44,861 nt of DNA from the IMG/VR virus record IMGVR_UViG_3300036832_000955, positions 1-44,861 of that record, one strand, 5' to 3'. This stretch comes from a virus. This document shows, one piece after another, positions 1 through 44,861 of this stretch. The position numbers were made by a program, and so were the translations under genes. Below the pieces are notes generated by a model. That model was not told where the DNA came from. It ran no database searches and was given only the letters and a program-made list of their open reading frames with translations. Position 1 is the stretch's first letter; each line of letters opens with the position of its first letter.

Positions 1-115
1 GTGTACGCAAAGCGTAGAAACCGGCTGTCACACATTTTGTTGCAACCCTGAGGAACCGAGCGATGTCCATCTACGAACGCACTTCCCCGCCGAGCCCCTA
101 CTGGTACATCCGCTT
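1..115. repeat. Terminal direct repeat, left copy (circular-assembly overlap)
   Basis: Bases 1-115 are identical to 44747-44861. The repeat begins in the integrase promoter spacer and runs into the integrase gene. An exact repeat that breaks a gene at the contig end is typical of a circular assembly written with a k-mer-sized overlap, so the real unit is probably 44,746 bp. A true terminal redundancy cannot be excluded, but it would be odd for it to split int. Confidence 0.93.
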
Positions 116-1319
116 TTCGTGGAAGGGCGAGACCGTCAACCAGAGCAGCCAAGTCCTCATCGGCAAGACGGCGGCCGAGCGCAAGGCGTCGACGGCCGAC
201 GCCGAGGCCATCGAGGTCAAGCTCCGCGCCGGCATCACCGCCCGTCAGAAGGGCGGCTTCACCAGCGGCATGACCTTGGGCGATGCCTGCACCCGGTACC
301 ACGACGACGTGCTGATGATCAGCCCTCCGGTGCTGAACGCCATCGAGCGCGGCGAAGACCCGGCCAAGATTTCCGTCGTCCGCAATTTCATCTCGATGGG
401 CGACCGCCTGTGCGACGCCTTCGGCGAGACCCGCGTGCTGGACGACATCACCGACCTGATGATCGTGGAGCAGCGCGACCGCATGCTGAAGACCGGCCGC
501 CGGGTCGCCACCAAGGGCGTGGCCGACGGCACCAAGACGGAGCTGCGCGGCCAGGGTCTGTCGGTCGGCTCGGTCAACGCCTACCTGCGCCTGCTGTCGT
601 CGATCCTGGGCTACGCTCACAAGGACTGGAAGACGCTGGCCGTCCGCCCCAACGTGCAATGGTTCGGCAAGGGCAAGGCGCCGAAGGTCAAGAAGGCCAA
701 GTGCCTGAGCGACGATCAGGTCGACCAGTTACTGGCTGCCGCCCGCGCCTACAACGGCGCTGGCGCCCACTGCGAGCGGGCGCTGCTGTTCCTGTTCAAC
801 ACGGGCGCGCGCAGGACCGAGGCGTTCGCCCTGACGTGGCCCCGCATCGACCTCGCCTCCAATGGCCCGGCGCACGTTCACTTCATCGACCAGACCAAGC
901 GCGACAAGGACCGCTTCGTGCAAATCCCCGAGGGGCTGCGCGCGATGCTGCAGCAGATGAAGGCCGAGCAGATCAAGGGCGGCTACAAGGGCGACAAGGT
1001 CTTCGCCTACCGTCACCCGCGCAACAACAGCTGGGTCGAGCCCAAGGGTCTGGAGAGCCAGCTCGACGCGATCCGCAAGGCGGCGGGCGTGCCGAAGTTC
1101 ACGCAGCACATCGCCCGTCATACCTTCGCCAGCCGCGTGCTGCGCCATGGCAAGGGCGCCCGCCTGCAGCACGTCAAGGAGCTGCTCGGCCACGAGGACA
1201 TCAAGACCACGCAAATCTACGCCAGCTACGAGCAGAAGGACCTCGACGCCGTCGTGTCGTTCCTCGACGCCAAGTGGAAGGCGCCTAGCGATGCCGCCGC
1301 TTCGCCAGCAGCCGACTAA
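63..1319 (+). CDS. int: Tyrosine-family site-specific integrase
   Basis: A 418-residue phage integrase that would recombine attP with a host attB. The N-terminal part (about 1-65) is the arm-binding type beginning SPYWYIRFSW, residues 66-200 are the SAM-like core-binding domain, and 215-405 is the catalytic domain. The expected catalytic set is visible: R250 in TGARRTEAF, K279, H349 and R352 in QHIARHTFASR, H377 in LLGHEDIKTTQ and the nucleophile Y386 in IYASYEQ. The ATG at 63 has TGAGGAA 7 bases upstream. Its promoter lies across the contig join (44738-44766). The end overlaps the convergent HTH gene by 35 bases, an arrangement typical of int/xis pairs. Function is secure; the att site is not known. 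Confidence 0.96.
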   Translation: MSIYERTSPPSPYWYIRFSWKGETVNQSSQVLIGKTAAERKASTADAEAIEVKLRAGITARQKGGFTSGMTLGDACTRYHDDVLMISPPVLNAIERGEDPAKISVVRNFISMGDRLCDAFGETRVLDDITDLMIVEQRDRMLKTGRRVATKGVADGTKTELRGQGLSVGSVNAYLRLLSSILGYAHKDWKTLAVRPNVQWFGKGKAPKVKKAKCLSDDQVDQLLAAARAYNGAGAHCERALLFLFNTGARRTEAFALTWPRIDLASNGPAHVHFIDQTKRDKDRFVQIPEGLRAMLQQMKAEQIKGGYKGDKVFAYRHPRNNSWVEPKGLESQLDAIRKAAGVPKFTQHIARHTFASRVLRHGKGARLQHVKELLGHEDIKTTQIYASYEQKDLDAVVSFLDAKWKAPSDAAASPAAD

Positions 1320-1724: not shown

Positions 1725-2202
1725 TGTCGAACAGGCCGGGCGGCGTCGACTGTGGGCGCCCAGGTGGCGGCGCATACCCGCGCACCTTCGCGAGCTGCTC
1801 CATCCAGGCGATGACCTCCACGATGGTCTTGTGCTGCTCATTGAGCCGCTCGACAAAGGCGGTGAGATGTCCGTCGATCTTGCTGAGCCGCAGCTCGATC
1901 CTGTCGACATCGTTCTCAAGGTCTTTGACGCGCTGAACCAACAGCTGGCTCACCGACATCGTCTTCTCTTCGCGCGCCTTGCGTACGTTGCCGAAGAGGT
2001 CTTTGCGCATCGACTGGACCGACGCCATGTGTATGACCTTGTCGGGGTCTGGATTGTTTGCGTTGACCTCGGCGAGGATGCGCTGCTCGTCCCAGCCGTC
2101 AGCATAGACCGCGTAGTCGCCCACTCTGCTGCAATGTGCGCGCACCAGATCACCGATGACGAGATTTTGTCGCTTGGTCGCATTGTGCCTCTTGGTCTTC
2201 AT
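1717..2202 (-). CDS. Hypothetical protein with C-terminal coiled coil
   Basis: A 161-residue protein starting MKTKRHNATKRQ. The ATG at 2202 is preceded by GGAGGAT and overlaps the NinB stop as ATGA, so it is translationally coupled. The first 80 residues contain no motif I recognise. Residues about 85-140 (VQRVKDLENDVDRIELRLSK and onward) form a long heptad-like helix, so oligomerisation is likely. The tail is proline-rich. It sits downstream of ninB in the recombination cluster; the role is unknown. Confidence 0.82.
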   Translation of the reverse strand: MKTKRHNATKRQNLVIGDLVRAHCSRVGDYAVYADGWDEQRILAEVNANNPDPDKVIHMASVQSMRKDLFGNVRKAREEKTMSVSQLLVQRVKDLENDVDRIELRLSKIDGHLTAFVERLNEQHKTIVEVIAWMEQLAKVRGYAPPPGRPQSTPPGLFDNA

Positions 2203-2600
2203 GCATCCTCCTTCAAGGTGATATTGCGCACGGCGCACCACGCCGCTTGGTAGTCGAGCAGATCGCTCATGTCGGTTTTCGAAAGGTCGCGACTGTGTTT
2301 CATCAGCGACACGCGCTCGCCCTCGATGCCGAGCAGTAGGTGCATCGGGTGTTGTTTGATGACGTGCCAGCCCGACAGCAGCAGGTCGTGCCAGCCTTGC
2401 TTGTCGTGGCGCATGCCGCCCCAGGTGTAGGTTGTCTTCGCGATCTCGCCACACGCCGCCCAGAACCGGCTCGACTGATCGAGGGTGCGCGGCGGCTCGC
2501 CGATCCTGACGAGCCAGCCCTCAGGCGCCGACTGCACGAGCTGGCAGGCGACCGCCCTGGTGTGGTCGCCCATCAGCCGGATGGTGGCGCCGTCTGGCAT
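2199..2600 (-). CDS. ninB: NinB-like recombination protein
   Basis: A 133-residue protein of the lambda NinB (Orf) family, which in lambda helps RecF/RecO/RecR-type functions load recombinase on SSB-coated DNA. The family pattern is visible: SSRFWAACGEIAKTTYTWGG, then DKQGWHDLLLSGW, then GIEGERVSLMKHSRDLSKTD and a helical DLLDYQAAWCA. I chose the ATG at 2600, which overlaps the previous stop as TGATG; a GTG at 2603 is also possible. Its neighbours are an exonuclease and an uncharacterised protein, giving a compact phage recombination module. Confidence 0.85.
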   Translation of the reverse strand: MPDGATIRLMGDHTRAVACQLVQSAPEGWLVRIGEPPRTLDQSSRFWAACGEIAKTTYTWGGMRHDKQGWHDLLLSGWHVIKQHPMHLLLGIEGERVSLMKHSRDLSKTDMSDLLDYQAAWCAVRNITLKEDA

Positions 2601-3157
2601 CACTGCAGCTCCGGGCCAGGGTCGCCCGGTTCGGGCGGCGGTGGCTCGGCCGCCGCCGGCTTGGCGATCTCGTCCCAGGTGCGGGCCGCCTCCTTGGCGA
2701 ACACGGCAATCTCCGAGGCCGCCTTGCCGGCCTCCATGGCGCCGGCAACCACCTCGCTGATGAACATCTCCCGTGGCGTGCGGAACGGGGCCTGCTGGGG
2801 CTGCCCCTGACCCTGGCCTCCCTGTACGACCCGTGGCTGGAAGCCCGTATTTGGCCGTACAGCTGTTTCACGTGAAACATAGGGGGTCTGGGCACCCTGG
2901 CCGTACGGGGCCTGTACGCCCTGGATTTGGCTCCCCTGGGCGAGCATCGGCCCGGTGGTGGCCACGGTGACCGCCATGGCGGTCGGCGTGCCAGCTCCCC
3001 AGGTCTGGTCCTTGGTGCCAATTTCGCACGCCATGCCGATCCTGAATTGGGCCAGCAGGTCTTGCGGCGCCCAGATGGTCTTGCCGTCGGCGGTGGCGAG
3101 CTTGCCGTACTTCCCGCCAGGGCGGGGAAAGGTCACGTTGGTGATGGTCACGAACAT
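2600..3157 (-). CDS. Hypothetical protein of the recombination cluster; carries a parS sequence
   Basis: A 185-residue protein with a compact N-terminal part (1-65, MFVTITNVTF then GGKYGKLATADGKTIWAP), which looks like a small beta-barrel. A G/Q/P-rich linker follows (75-125), then a helical segment (128-165) and an acidic proline-rich tail. The layout of a beta domain plus a disordered acidic tail, beside an exonuclease and NinB, recalls phage single-strand-binding proteins, but no signature proves that. Codons 94-98 (VSRET) contain an exact 16-bp parS palindrome. Confidence 0.8.
   Translation of the reverse strand: MFVTITNVTFPRPGGKYGKLATADGKTIWAPQDLLAQFRIGMACEIGTKDQTWGAGTPTAMAVTVATTGPMLAQGSQIQGVQAPYGQGAQTPYVSRETAVRPNTGFQPRVVQGGQGQGQPQQAPFRTPREMFISEVVAGAMEAGKAASEIAVFAKEAARTWDEIAKPAAAEPPPPEPGDPGPELQ
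2864..2879. promoter_or_regulatory. Perfect parS (ParB-binding) palindrome inside a coding region
   Basis: The 16 bases TGTTTCACGTGAAACA form a perfect palindrome and equal the bacterial chromosomal parS consensus bound by ParB (Spo0J). Seen on the minus strand it encodes VSRET. I found no parA or parB gene in this phage, so any binder would be the host protein. Two bases to the left ends a 19-mer (2844-2862) that recurs with one change at 15443-15461. The match is seen directly; use as a ParB site is inference. Confidence 0.75.
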
Positions 3158-3160
3158 CGA

Positions 3161-3955
3161 TCACTCCACAGCATGCAGGGGTTGATGGTTGCGCTCGCCC
3201 GGCAGGACGCGCGCGGCCTTGGCAGCCCGCACGGCCTCGGCCATGGGCGGGCTGAAGTGAAAATCCGTGTAGTCGGGGGCGAACATGCTGAGCGCGTCGT
3301 GGGCGCCGTCGACCCTGGAGAGGAACGAGCGCACCGCCTGGGCGGTCTCGATCAGCCGGTCCCAGCCCTCGGCCGCCATGCTGGCGGTGACCTCGTAGCG
3401 GGTCCATTTCTTGTTGGTGACGTAGGTCAGGCTGAACGGCTTGCCGCTGCACATGGCATAGAAGGCCACCTGCTCGACGTGGTCGGGCGTCGGCGAGCTG
3501 GGCATGCGCCACGTGGTCTTGAGGTCGGTGCCGTGGTCAGGGAAAACCCAGTCGGCGAAGCCGAGCAGGGGCACGCTGATGCCGGGCAGCGTCAGCTCCA
3601 TGCGGGTCTGCCGGGTGAGCGGCACCGGCATGCTGGCGAAGGCGAGGGCGGCTTGGTCGAGGAACGCGTCGAGCGCGTCACTCTCCTTGGCGACGTTGGG
3701 CTCGATCAGGCCTTGCGCGAGGTCGTCCCATTTCTGGCGCATCGCCGCCCTGGCGGCCTCGATGCCCAGGTTGAACAACAGCCGGTCGACGCCGGCCTCG
3801 ACCGCCTGACCACGCCACGCGCCGGGGCCGACCTCGTCGGTGGCGCGCAGCAGATACTTGCCGATCCAGACCGACGGCGCGTCACGCCAGAGGCGCAGCG
3901 ACGACGGGGAGAGATGGGTGATGCCGTGCCGTTCAAACGGGTCGCTGGTTGCCAT
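3161..3955 (-). CDS. PD-(D/E)XK exonuclease (RecB/Cas4-like)
   Basis: A 264-residue nuclease of the PD-(D/E)XK superfamily, likely the 5'-3' exonuclease of the phage recombination system. The N-terminal ITHLSPSSLRLWRDAPSVWI is the usual opening of RecB-like phage exonucleases. The active-site strands are visible as GFADWVFPDHGTDLKTTWR: an aspartate, then D-L-K, at about residues 133-147. A conserved helix with H-V-E-Q-V-A-F-Y-A follows at 159-167. The start ATG at 3955 has a strong GGAGGTAACG site. It follows the small gene 3933-4151 with a 23-base overlap. Confidence 0.85.
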   Translation of the reverse strand: MATSDPFERHGITHLSPSSLRLWRDAPSVWIGKYLLRATDEVGPGAWRGQAVEAGVDRLLFNLGIEAARAAMRQKWDDLAQGLIEPNVAKESDALDAFLDQAALAFASMPVPLTRQTRMELTLPGISVPLLGFADWVFPDHGTDLKTTWRMPSSPTPDHVEQVAFYAMCSGKPFSLTYVTNKKWTRYEVTASMAAEGWDRLIETAQAVRSFLSRVDGAHDALSMFAPDYTDFHFSPPMAEAVRAAKAARVLPGERNHQPLHAVE

Positions 3956-4269: not shown

Positions 4270-4965
4270 TTACCTTAGGACTTCATCCCAGGTCAGGACG
4301 CGGTACATGCCCGAGACCGCCTTGGCGTCGATCTCGGTATCGCGCCTGGGGTTGTGCTGGCGCAGGCAGACCTTGCCGGTCTTTTGGTTGTCCACAAGCT
4401 GGCGCACCATCACCGGCTTTTTTTCCTCGTCGTCGTGGAGGTAGATGACGACGTAGTCCCCAGCCTTTGGTGGTCGTGCTTTTTCGAACAGCACGAGGTC
4501 GCCAGCCTCGCGCCAGGGCACCATTTTCGACCCGTGCTGGTACACGCCAGCGATGTCGGTGCGCCCTTCGAACGCCGGCAGCTGCCGGGCGATGCGCAGG
4601 GTCTCGCCGGTCAGCAGGCTGTCGCAGCAGGGTTTCGTCACGGGCGTGGTGCCCAGCACCCGGATCACGTCGAGGATCGCCGACATGCCGCTGGTGTTCG
4701 CGCCGTGGCTGATGAAGGCACCCTTGGGCAGGATGCCCTTGGTCGGCAGCACCCGCTGCTGAGCGGGTAACCGCTGCAGCAGCTCCTCGGTCGACCAGCC
4801 GAGAAATTCGGCGGCCGGTGCGATCTCGTGAGGCTGTATCCCCCGTCGACCCCCGATCATTTCGTAGACACGCGGCGGGGCGATATTCAGTTGCTCCGCC
4901 AGCGCGGCAGGCGTCCTCCCAAGTTTCCTCAGTCGAGCCTTTAACCACGGCATTTTAGGCTTCAT
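4270..4965 (-). CDS. S24/LexA-fold phage repressor (CI-like)
   Basis: A 231-residue repressor with an N-terminal HTH (about 6-58, TPAALAEQLNIAPPRVYEMI) and a C-terminal S24 fold (about 120-230, GVYQHGSKMVPWREAGDLVL then KAGDYVVIYL). The ATG at 4965 follows GAAGGAAGGTGAAT. S146 is a possible nucleophile, but the sequence reads GSKM rather than GDSM. The position of the general-base lysine (VKRL in LexA) is VRQL here, with R188. Self-cleavage may therefore be lost. It is divergent from a Cro-like gene, the classic immunity switch. An operator-like 13-mer (5006-5018) lies 41 bases upstream of the start. Confidence 0.88.
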   Translation of the reverse strand: MKPKMPWLKARLRKLGRTPAALAEQLNIAPPRVYEMIGGRRGIQPHEIAPAAEFLGWSTEELLQRLPAQQRVLPTKGILPKGAFISHGANTSGMSAILDVIRVLGTTPVTKPCCDSLLTGETLRIARQLPAFEGRTDIAGVYQHGSKMVPWREAGDLVLFEKARPPKAGDYVVIYLHDDEEKKPVMVRQLVDNQKTGKVCLRQHNPRRDTEIDAKAVSGMYRVLTWDEVLR

Positions 4966-5171
4966 CAATTCACCTTCCTTCCTCACACCGCGACACTTTA
5001 GCCGATACCGATTGCGTATCGCAATGCCGCTCTGCGGAGCATGCGAACTACAACTTATGGGGCCGGGCAATCAGCGCGCCAGAACCTATTGGGTTGCATT
5101 TTTTTCTGTGTGTAAATTTTACGAAACGAGTAACGTCACGGACTTGTAAGCATTCGCTAAGGGGCAATCGA
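4966..5171. promoter_or_regulatory. Divergent immunity control region between repressor and Cro-like gene
   Basis: A 206-base AT-richer gap between divergent genes, expected to hold PRM- and PR-like promoters. Visible elements: the palindrome ATTGCG-TAT-CGCAAT (5011-5025); overlapping it, TACCGATTGCGTA (5006-5018), a minus-strand member of the dispersed 13-mer family; CCGC-TCT-GCGG (5027-5037); and GTAAATTTTAC (5112-5122) next to a T-run (5098-5105). I cannot place the promoters with confidence. Confidence 0.75.
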
Positions 5172-16261: not shown

Positions 16262-16795
16262 ATGCCCATGGCTAAGACCACCTCCAAACCGAAGCGCGTG
16301 GTCTCCCAGGAAACCCGACAGCGTCAGTCCAGAGCTGCCCTCAGCTTGAAACAGATGCGCTTCGTCAAAGAGTACGCTGCCCTCGGCAACGGTGCTGAGG
16401 CTGCCAGGAAGGCCGGATACAAGAACGGCAACAGCATCCACCAGCAAGCTCACGAGAACTTGAGAAAGCCTGAGATTGCACGTGCAGTTGAGGGTGAATT
16501 GGCCCGGATTGCGCTGGAAGTATCGCCAAAGCGGGTGCAGCGCCGCCTCGACGAGATCAGCCACGCGGCGCAGGCCGACGGGCAGTACGGCCCGGCGGTG
16601 CGGGCCGAGGAGCTCCTCGGCAAATCCATCGGCATGTGGATCGATCAGAGCCTGCAACTCACGGGTGCACTGAGCGACACTCACATCGCTGCCCTGGTCG
16701 ACATGGCACGGCGCCGGCAGCAGGAGCCTGTCGACCTGGGCGATGATGTCGAGCGTGACAGAAAGCGTGACAGTGACATGGGCGAGGAGCGTTAG
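16262..16795 (+). CDS. terS: Terminase small subunit
   Basis: A 177-residue protein of the Terminase_2 family, which recognises phage DNA for packaging. LSLKQMRFVKEYAALGNGAE then AARKAGYKNGNSIHQQAHEN is the N-terminal HTH, KPEI follows, and the middle is a helical oligomerisation segment. ATG at 16262; a second at 16268 is possible. It starts the plus-strand late operon, with terL next. Confidence 0.88.
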   Translation: MPMAKTTSKPKRVVSQETRQRQSRAALSLKQMRFVKEYAALGNGAEAARKAGYKNGNSIHQQAHENLRKPEIARAVEGELARIALEVSPKRVQRRLDEISHAAQADGQYGPAVRAEELLGKSIGMWIDQSLQLTGALSDTHIAALVDMARRRQQEPVDLGDDVERDRKRDSDMGEER

Positions 16796-16851: not shown

Positions 16852-18819
16852 GTGAGCGCGCGTACGCAGCGTGCGTCTACGTCCAGGCGCAGCAGGCCCA
16901 ACGCAGGCCACGCACGCGATGCGAGCGTGGCGACGGCGGACGTGGACGCGCGGCAGGATGCTGAACGTGGCGCCCGCGATCTCGAAACACCCCCCGCCCC
17001 GGTGACCACCTCGGTGCGCGCCCTCGGTCGCGACCCACCGGTCCCTGTAAAAAATAATCACGGCCCGACGGCGCAAGTTGGCGAGCGTGCCGAGAAAAAT
17101 AATCACGAGGGTGCCCAGACGAGCGTGGTTGCGCCCGCGAGCGCGCCACAACCCGGTGCTAGTAGCCTAGCACCTGATCTGGCTATTCCTGATTTTTTGC
17201 GACGTGGTTCAGGATGTAGTCCGCCAGATCGCGAACGGCTTGGCTTGCCTGACGGCAGCGGCGCATCAGCTCTTGGTCCGAGTGATACTCCGGCGGCAGG
17301 ACGGCAATCGTCTTTGCCAGCTGGCGAAGCGAAAGAGCTGCTTTCCGAATATCCTGCTTCGGGTTCATCGCCACCTCCTCCTGAGCGTTCTGACGCTCCC
17401 CCTGAGAAGCCTACGCAAACGGTAGGAATATGGACCACGATCATCGAGACCTACAAGGACAGGCCGGTGGCGTTTGTCGAGGACTTGCTGGTTCGGAATT
17501 ATCCGAATTTTCGGATCGAGGATTGGCAGAAGCGGTTTTTGAAGGCTGTGGCCAGGGGTGAGCGGCGGATCAGCGTCAGGGCTGGACACGGTGTCGGGAA
17601 GTCGGCGGCGTGCTCGTGGGCGCTGATCTGGTTCATGTTCACGAGGTATCCGCAAAAATCTGTGCTGACGGCGCCGACCGAGAAGCAGTTGTTCGATGCG
17701 CTGTTTGCCGAGATCAAAAGGTGGATTAACGAGCTGCCTCAGTTCATGCGCGATCAGGTGACGCTGTTCAGTGATCGTATTGAGCTGAAGGCGTCGCCGG
17801 AAAATTCGTTCATGTCGGCCAGGACGAGCAGCAAGGAGCGGCCCGAGGCGATGGCGGGTGTGCATAGCGATCACGTGCTGCTGGTGTGTGACGAGGCGTC
17901 GGGCATTGACGAGGTGGTGTACGAGGCGGCGGTCGGTTCGATGTCGAGCTTCAATGCGACGACGATTTTGATCAGCAACCCGACGCGCAACACCGGATTG
18001 TTTTTCGACACGCATCATCGTCTGGCGCATCGCTGGTTCCGCATGCATGTGAGCTGCATTGGCAGTCGATTGGTCGAGCCGGATTTTGTCCAGCAGGTGA
18101 TCGACCAGTATGGCGAGGGCAGCCCGCGCTATCAGGTGCGTGTGCTGGGCGATTTCCCGACGCGGGAAGACGACGTGCTGATCCCGGCCGAGCTGGTCGA
18201 TGCGGCGATGTCGAGGGATGTGGTTCTCGATGGGACGGAGCCGCTGGTCTACGGGTTGGACGTGGCGCGCTTTGGCGATGACCGGACGGTGCTGCTCAAG
18301 CGCCAGGGCAATGTGGTTCTCGAGTACAAGGTTTGGTCAGGCCAGGATTTGATGGCGACGGTTGGTCGGGTGATGCACGAGGCGTCTATCGATCAGCCGG
18401 CTGAGATCATGGTCGACAGCATTGGCCTGGGTGCTGGTGTTGCGGATCGCCTGCGTGAGCAGGGCATGAACGTGCGCGACGTCAACGTCGCCGAGATGTC
18501 GGCGATGAACCCGACGGCGGCCAAACTGCGCGACGAGCTGTGGCTCACGCTCAAGGATTGGCTCAGCAAGCGGGCGTGTCGTCTGCCCAAGGACGAGGAG
18601 TTCCGGGGCGAGCTGGTCGGGCCGACCTACTCGTTCATGTCGAACGGCAAGCTCAAGGTCGAAGCCAAGGTCGACATGAAGCGACGCGGTCTCAGAAGCC
18701 CAGACGTGGCCGATGCGCTGTGCCTGACGTTTGCCGGGGCCGCCGCCCTGGTCGGCGGCCGAGCGAGCTTCTGGGTCAAGGGCAAGCCCCTGCAGCGGTC
18801 TATTCGGGGGATCGTCTGA
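16852..18819 (+). CDS. terL: Terminase large subunit with a long low-complexity N-terminal extension
   Basis: The packaging ATPase-nuclease. Counting from the GTG at 16852 (GGAGAG 5 bases before), the ATPase core starts near residue 190: WQKRF, Walker A AGHGVGKS (K250), Walker B LLVCDEAS (D347, E348), then the RNase-H-like nuclease with YGLDVARFGDD (D470) and MKRRGLRSPDVADA near the end. Residues 1-189 are disordered, rich in P, A, S and R, and lie opposite a well-formed minus-strand gene (17183-17368). The only common start after that gene is GTG 17467, which would cut off the conserved YKDRPVAFVE. The core is certain; the start is not. Confidence 0.9.
   Translation: MSARTQRASTSRRSRPNAGHARDASVATADVDARQDAERGARDLETPPAPVTTSVRALGRDPPVPVKNNHGPTAQVGERAEKNNHEGAQTSVVAPASAPQPGASSLAPDLAIPDFLRRGSGCSPPDRERLGLPDGSGASALGPSDTPAAGRQSSLPAGEAKELLSEYPASGSSPPPPERSDAPPEKPTQTVGIWTTIIETYKDRPVAFVEDLLVRNYPNFRIEDWQKRFLKAVARGERRISVRAGHGVGKSAACSWALIWFMFTRYPQKSVLTAPTEKQLFDALFAEIKRWINELPQFMRDQVTLFSDRIELKASPENSFMSARTSSKERPEAMAGVHSDHVLLVCDEASGIDEVVYEAAVGSMSSFNATTILISNPTRNTGLFFDTHHRLAHRWFRMHVSCIGSRLVEPDFVQQVIDQYGEGSPRYQVRVLGDFPTREDDVLIPAELVDAAMSRDVVLDGTEPLVYGLDVARFGDDRTVLLKRQGNVVLEYKVWSGQDLMATVGRVMHEASIDQPAEIMVDSIGLGAGVADRLREQGMNVRDVNVAEMSAMNPTAAKLRDELWLTLKDWLSKRACRLPKDEEFRGELVGPTYSFMSNGKLKVEAKVDMKRRGLRSPDVADALCLTFAGAAALVGGRASFWVKGKPLQRSIRGIV
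17183..17368 (-). CDS. Small helical protein antisense to the terL 5' end
   Basis: 61 residues starting MNPKQDIRKAALSLRQLAKT; the ATG at 17368 is preceded by AGGAGGAGGTGGCG, the strongest ribosome site in the region. The product is a clean all-helical protein (YHSDQELMRRCRQASQAVRD, then LADYILNHVAK), whereas the opposite frame is low-complexity. A member of the 13-mer site family (17412-17424) lies 44 bases upstream. I infer a real moron-type gene inserted between terS and terL. Confidence 0.7.
   Translation of the reverse strand: MNPKQDIRKAALSLRQLAKTIAVLPPEYHSDQELMRRCRQASQAVRDLADYILNHVAKNQE
17412..17424. promoter_or_regulatory. Dispersed 13-mer site upstream of the antisense gene
   Basis: TACGCAAACGGTA; differs from the integrase-promoter site only by exchange of two bases (GC to CG). 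It lies in the terL frame but is placed as an operator for 17183-17368 on minus. Confidence 0.5.
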
Positions 18820-44746: not shown

Positions 44747-44766
44747 GTGTACGCAAAGCGTAGAAA
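44738..44766 (+). promoter_or_regulatory. Integrase promoter with operator-like 13-mer in the spacer
   Basis: TTGACG (-35), exactly 17 bases, then TAGAAA (-10). The palindrome TACGCAAAGCGTA (44750-44762, equal to 4-16) fills the spacer and enters the -10, so a bound protein would block RNA polymerase. The int ATG is 42 bases after the -10. Confidence 0.75.
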
Positions 44767-44861
44767 CCGGCTGTCACACATTTTGTTGCAACCCTGAGGA
44801 ACCGAGCGATGTCCATCTACGAACGCACTTCCCCGCCGAGCCCCTACTGGTACATCCGCTT
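44747..44861. repeat. Terminal direct repeat, right copy
   Basis: Identical to 1-115. Position 44747 corresponds to position 1 of the next turn of the circle. Confidence 0.93.
44809..44861 (+). CDS. int: Integrase 5' end repeated at the contig edge (partial)
   Basis: The first 17 codons of int (from 63) occur again and are cut by the end of the window. It is an artefact of linearising a circle, not a second gene. Confidence 0.9.
   Translation, partial: MSIYERTSPPSPYWYIR

Follow-up and report, generated by a model that had tools for sequence, protein, structure and literature searches.

The window analysed here spans positions 1 to 44,861 of IMG/VR virus record IMGVR_UViG_3300036832_000955 (64.7% GC). 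One of its genes, for a 185-aa protein, contains an exact copy of the 16-bp palindrome TGTTTCACGTGAAACA, the chromosomal-type parS (Table 1). The gene sits between a PDDEXK or Cas4-like nuclease, which is a syntenic upstream neighbour, and a NinB/Orf recombination mediator, and its description as a recombination-cluster gene in an earlier, sequence-only reading of this DNA is therefore fair. As that reading had stated, the site is the canonical parS 16-mer and a perfect palindrome; nothing else in the whole window matches it at up to three mismatches. The expected number of exact copies per window is 1.5e-6 for independent bases, 2.8e-6 under a first-order and 2.0e-6 under a second-order Markov model, close to the earlier estimate of about one in a million.

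Table 1. Features of the parS locus and of the phage genome, in window positions.
Feature	Position	Strand	Basis or remark
Chromosomal-type parS palindrome TGTTTCACGTGAAACA, exact	2864..2879	.	Sequence match
parS-bearing gene, 185-aa protein	2600..3157	-	ORF; homologues in G001, G002 and G007 49-54% identical
In-frame codons GTT TCA CGT GAA ACA, encoding VSRET (residues 94-98)	2864..2878	-	ORF translation
Low-confidence linker codons, predicted disordered, parS inside	2789..2956	-	Length and sequence vary among homologues
PDDEXK / Cas4-like nuclease, syntenic upstream neighbour	3161..3955	-	64-73% in relatives
NinB/Orf recombination mediator, downstream neighbour	2199..2603	-	
Repressor-like protein	4270..5070	-	HTH and peptidase S24-like, both under Pfam cut-off
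Tyrosine integrase	63..1319	+	Temperate lifestyle
Terminase large subunit (TerL)	17431..18819	+	Query for clade; 66-67% to Sinorhizobium phage phiM5
Exact 115-bp repeat of window 1-115	44747..44861	.	End comparison; contig closes to circle

Perfect symmetry is not peculiar to this site, a point on which the sequence-only reading needs correction, since the window has other perfect palindromes of 16 bp or more. One of them, the GC-rich 16-mer GACCGCCATGGCGGTC at 2969-2984, shares its gene with parS and is some 90 bp away from it. The longest in the window is the 18-bp GCCGAGGAGCTCCTCGGC at 16604-16621, also GC-rich and some 0.8 kb ahead of the gene for the terminase large subunit. To our knowledge, neither of these two resembles any known site.

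The identical 115-bp ends, together with a relative (G001) that is colinear but circularly permuted, show that the window represents an entire phage genome, circular and 44,746 bp long. G001 is likewise circular, with a 123-bp end overlap. Because the genome is complete, missing partition genes carry meaning. Profile searches of the window at E<=1 found neither ParB_N (PF02195) nor ParA-type AAA_31 (PF13614), and neither profile was found in the relatives G001, G002, G007 and G008. The earlier statement that no ParA or ParB is encoded thus holds for a closed genome, and this phage has no parA and parB genes of its own. The structural genes are similar to those of Sinorhizobium phage phiM5, and the host is probably alphaproteobacterial. 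When a close prophage was sought as a pointer to the host, the best genome matches had TerL identities of only 32-54%, and the nuclease protein gave only weak matches, in 2 of 385 Alphaproteobacteria genomes. As tRNA or attP clues to the host, a tRNA and a T-loop-like motif near the integrase were looked for, and neither was found; nor was there any Rfam match.

Protein and DNA at the site

AlphaFold2 models built from four sequences predict a five-stranded, OB-like N-terminal domain (residues 1-67, pLDDT about 80), a linker of pLDDT below 50 (residues 68-123) and two C-terminal helices (128-164). VSRET falls within the predicted disordered linker. The OB resemblance is weak (best Foldseek E 0.026), and a role in single-strand binding for the 185-aa protein is therefore a guess. 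The three homologues align with it over the N-terminal domain, the block RxNTGFQPR and the C-terminal helices. In this alignment no VSRET-like segment is present in the homologues of G001, G002 and G007, and the segment ahead of RPNTGFQP varies in length and sequence.

All five codons used for VSRET are rare in the window, and given the window's codon usage the joint probability of GTT TCA CGT GAA ACA for this peptide is 6e-7. This codon choice, together with homologues that lack VSRET, means that the DNA is not accounted for by the protein, as had been proposed when the site was first read in frame. A pattern in which relatives keep VSRET and lose the palindrome had been named as evidence against recruitment of host ParB; in this gene relatives keep neither. 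Since the homologous genes have no such insert, synonymous-site conservation at the orthologous place could not serve as a measure.

Sites in relatives, bacterial chromosomes and other viral contigs

A clade of related phages was found through TerL (ten IMG/VR contigs at 67-83%, with a close clade at about 80%); single-query searches with the parS gene or its nuclease neighbour yielded no confirmed relatives. None of the relatives has an exact parS. Members of the close clade carry parS-like sites (GTTTCMCGKGAAAC) with one to three mismatches at other places in their genomes, none orthologous in position to the window site. Two of these, TGTTTCACGGGAAACC and CGTTTCCCGTGAAACG, are in G001 (up to three mismatches from parS), one of them directly preceding an ATG. 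A third, TGTTTCCCGTGAAACA, within the same limit, is common to G007 and G008, where it opens a small ORF (MTDVSRETFTC...).

The motif GTTTCNCGNGAAAC has five matches in the clade, the window included, versus none for all 19 permuted half-sites; outside the window there are three non-redundant matches against 0.006 expected under a second-order Markov model, for a motif that was chosen after the matches had been seen. With the original 16-mer at up to two mismatches the clade gives three matches, two of them independent. When 209 permuted palindromes were put through the same clade test, 206 had no match and one had two. Among more distant relatives, 30 full records contain no parS-like site at up to two mismatches, and the same is true of about 0.85 Mb of further loci. 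The trait is therefore recent or turns over.

Exact parS is present in six of eight alphaproteobacterial genomes, and a site with at most one mismatch in seven of eight, in a class that is a candidate for the host. The relatives' site TGTTTCCCGTGAAACA, read on the opposite strand as the G variant TGTTTCACGGGAAACA, occurs seven times in 142 alphaproteobacterial genomes. G079 has two copies 5.5-6.5 kb from parB, one of them between gidB and parA, and G133 has one where mnmG and gidB meet, at 1.9 kb from parB. From these positions beside parA or gidB and near parB in two genomes, TGTTTCACGGGAAACA is plausibly a chromosomal parS variant. The G variant also occurs within an internal-virion-protein gene (L324 6440-11017, G115:C7) on a 38-kb phage-like contig of an alphaproteobacterial MAG; in the chromosome of that MAG, an exact parS and parB are some 1.5 kb apart.

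Across IMG/VR, many of whose contigs are fragments, exact parS was found in at least 120 contigs and at least 145 distinct sites. A scrambled palindrome with permuted bases was found in three contigs, a contrast that is overstated because the one-base variant TGTTTCACGAGAAACA occurs in 94 contigs and 62 distinct sites, as counted in a complete scan that took in two orientations. Loci with two or more sites number 17 of 120 among the parS matches listed, versus 0 of 94 for TGTTTCACGAGAAACA (p 4e-5). ParB_N was found at E<=0.001 in 4 of 50 parS records examined, mostly the longest contigs among the matches listed, leaving 46 of 50 without it. Host oriC DNA mislabelled as viral was considered as a source of these sites and rejected, since none of the 120 parS loci among the matches listed has a ParA, GidB or MnmG homologue; the listed loci are thus not mislabelled origin regions.

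The window site resembles a group of viral sites that are read in the VSRET frame and have disordered flanks. Within ORFs of 150 aa or more, strongly disorder-promoting flanks were found for 15 of 34 parS sites read in that frame among the matches listed, and for 3 of 27 control-variant sites (p 0.006). Family matches mark some carrier genes as phage-like (primase/helicase, transglycosylase/tail and polyvalent proteins). We tentatively consider, at somewhat less than even confidence, that the orphan chromosomal-type parS is a general and repeatedly acquired phage trait, placed in permissive linkers or gene ends of phages without their own ParB, whose genomes would thereby be handled by the host ParABS/SMC machinery or would jam it.

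Two viral contigs (L017 2657-3444 and L044 10535-11462) each contain five exact parS within about 0.9 kb, with no ParA, GidB or MnmG homologues in the locus, and look like centromere-like arrays in putative phages. L012 (42-4064, plus strand) encodes a polyvalent-type phage protein of 1341 aa that matches the PHROG 'ParB C-terminal domain', and the gene for this protein itself contains an exact parS.

What the orphan parS may do

Most bacteria segregate their chromosomes by means of ParABS. A CTP clamp of chromosomal ParB is loaded at parS and then spreads, and ParA moves the resulting complex (PMC12704722, PMC7333895). The reading that we favour, with confidence about equal to our doubt, is that the orphan parS is kept for its DNA sequence, and that its primary effect would be to couple the phage genome to host ParABS through loading of host ParB. 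The phage would keep the site where an early gene encodes a disordered and permissive linker. From there the host ParB-CTP clamp would load and spread across neighbouring phage DNA, so that the circular genome, whether infecting, excised or replicating, would become coupled to host ParA and perhaps to SMC. Such coupling could yield nucleoid or polar positioning and partition of the phage genome, which would also compete with the host's own centromere for ParABS.

Because parS is present and the phage has neither ParA nor ParB, it probably borrows the host ParB machinery. We infer ParB loading on phage DNA because parS is strongly conserved across bacteria; the benefit to the phage is a further presumption. 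What is gained may be the inheritance and positioning of unintegrated genomes, a jamming of segregation in the host, or the two together, which is the case for SGI1. The favoured reading is supported by an exact and improbable site, the lack of peptide constraint, the absence of parAB, recurrent sites in relatives and the viral excess. Against it stand the single site per genome, an exact copy in only one clade member, no orthologous position elsewhere, and the 30 more distant full records with no parS-like site at up to two mismatches; moreover, to judge from a plasmid in Caulobacter, carriage of parS should exact a cost, except at low copy number or where damage to the host is the purpose. 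The sequence-only reading, in which the phage recruits host ParB to place or partition its genome, to hold an episomal prophage or as a decoy, survives in part. The presence of a host-type parS in a phage that lacks a ParB, and importance of the DNA rather than the peptide, are both supported. As the phage has an integrase gene and a repressor-like gene, its prophage need not be permanently episomal.

The same loading might serve takeover instead. Replicating phage copies of parS would soak up ParB (and with it MipZ in Alphaproteobacteria) and stall host segregation or division, partition not being the point. In Caulobacter, a strong parS on a plasmid lowers viability up to about 1000-fold, at a cost that tracks affinity and arises because the plasmid competes for segregation, and ParB recruits MipZ (PMC5815017). 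The parS mimics of SGI1 bind the ParB of an IncC plasmid, stabilise SGI1 and destabilise that helper plasmid (PMC10954446), and the phage site is a perfect consensus. Yet titration would call for more than the one site that each genome has, and an integrase-bearing phage would also weigh on the lysogen it forms, except when integrated near ori or ter, where extra chromosomal parS are tolerated in Caulobacter (PMC5815017). A synthetic lambda-parS phage also gathers P1-type CFP-ParB and still replicates and lyses normally, although that ParB is not a chromosomal one (PMC13190303). Taken together, we regard takeover as unlikely, if the strongest of the competing accounts. Only slightly less credit goes to chance, by which a random 16-mer without a selected role was spotted because many windows were read. 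For chance speak this look-elsewhere effect, the lack of conservation at the orthologous place in any relative, and the 30 more distant full records with no such site at up to two mismatches. A chance origin must nevertheless accommodate an expectation of 2e-6 in this genome, the independent parS-like sites of the close clade and the general parS excess in viral contigs.

Operators usually come in several copies and near promoters. An operator for a phage regulator (a repressor or other HTH protein) that is like parS by accident would fit the perfect palindrome and the presence of a repressor-like gene, but here there is one copy, mid-gene, with none else at up to three mismatches, and on bacterial chromosomes the same motif, G variant included, is a mark of parB/parA loci. 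This makes an operator improbable. We hold it still less probable, indeed very hard to credit, that selection acts on the peptide VSRET with the parS DNA as a by-product. For such selection speak some phage proteins that keep VSRET at homologous positions (...QARVSRETQLDQIKMQE, with the G variant, in L452, L460, L492, L500 and L507); in the present gene it is contradicted by the homologues without VSRET, the predicted disorder of the segment and the improbable codons. Peptide selection was thus rejected for this gene and accepted as real for some G-variant carriers, such as the ...RVSRETQLDQIK... proteins. The five loci just named encode homologous phage proteins with the conserved, helix-like ...RVSRETQLDQIK... 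over TGTTTCACGGGAAACA, where the thing conserved may be the peptide and not parS. The viral count of the G variant was accordingly left out of the evidence.

Known systems and what the site would mean

The closest precedent is the SGI1 family of integrative mobilizable elements, which likewise carry parS without their own matching parB; the ParB of another replicon binds these copies, and the ParABS of that replicon is both used and disturbed (PMC10954446). The phage shares with them a parS-like site in an element that lacks a matching parB. The differences are that SGI1 addresses a plasmid ParABS through two parS-like repeats and the Sci protein and is supported by experiment (PMC10954446), whereas the phage has one chromosomal-type parS in a coding region and a putative role deduced from sequence. 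Chromosomal parS of the Caulobacter and Bacillus type has a 16-bp sequence identical to the phage site, and it too can be intragenic, being read as VSRET in gidB (L313, L322) and occurring in essential genes in Caulobacter (PMC5815017). Unlike chromosomal parS, the phage site is not near oriC, has no parAB on its replicon, and is carried by a phage without a ParA or ParB domain.

Phages P1 and N15 and the extrachromosomal prophages of mycobacteriophages also have a centromere site on the phage genome (PMC7157519); these plasmid-prophages encode their own ParA and ParB with the cognate sites, while the present phage has neither domain and does have an integrase. In the synthetic lambda-parS reporter, ParB assembles on the injected phage genome and development continues, but that system combines an engineered P1-type site with ectopic ParB (PMC13190303), in contrast to the natural chromosomal-type site described here.

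It is already known that phages can encode a parABS of their own, and that an integrative element can turn parS mimicry against a plasmid. In the openly licensed literature we found no report of phage genomes that naturally carry an orphan chromosomal parS. Nor did we find there such a site in a complete phage genome that lacks parAB, with sites in relatives and a collection-wide excess. If phages commonly carry a host centromere, then host ParB, ParA and SMC would be direct players in infection and lysogeny. Prophages would, if this is true, be a source of ectopic parS able to perturb segregation and division, and parS hijacking would extend from SGI1 versus plasmid to phage versus chromosome.
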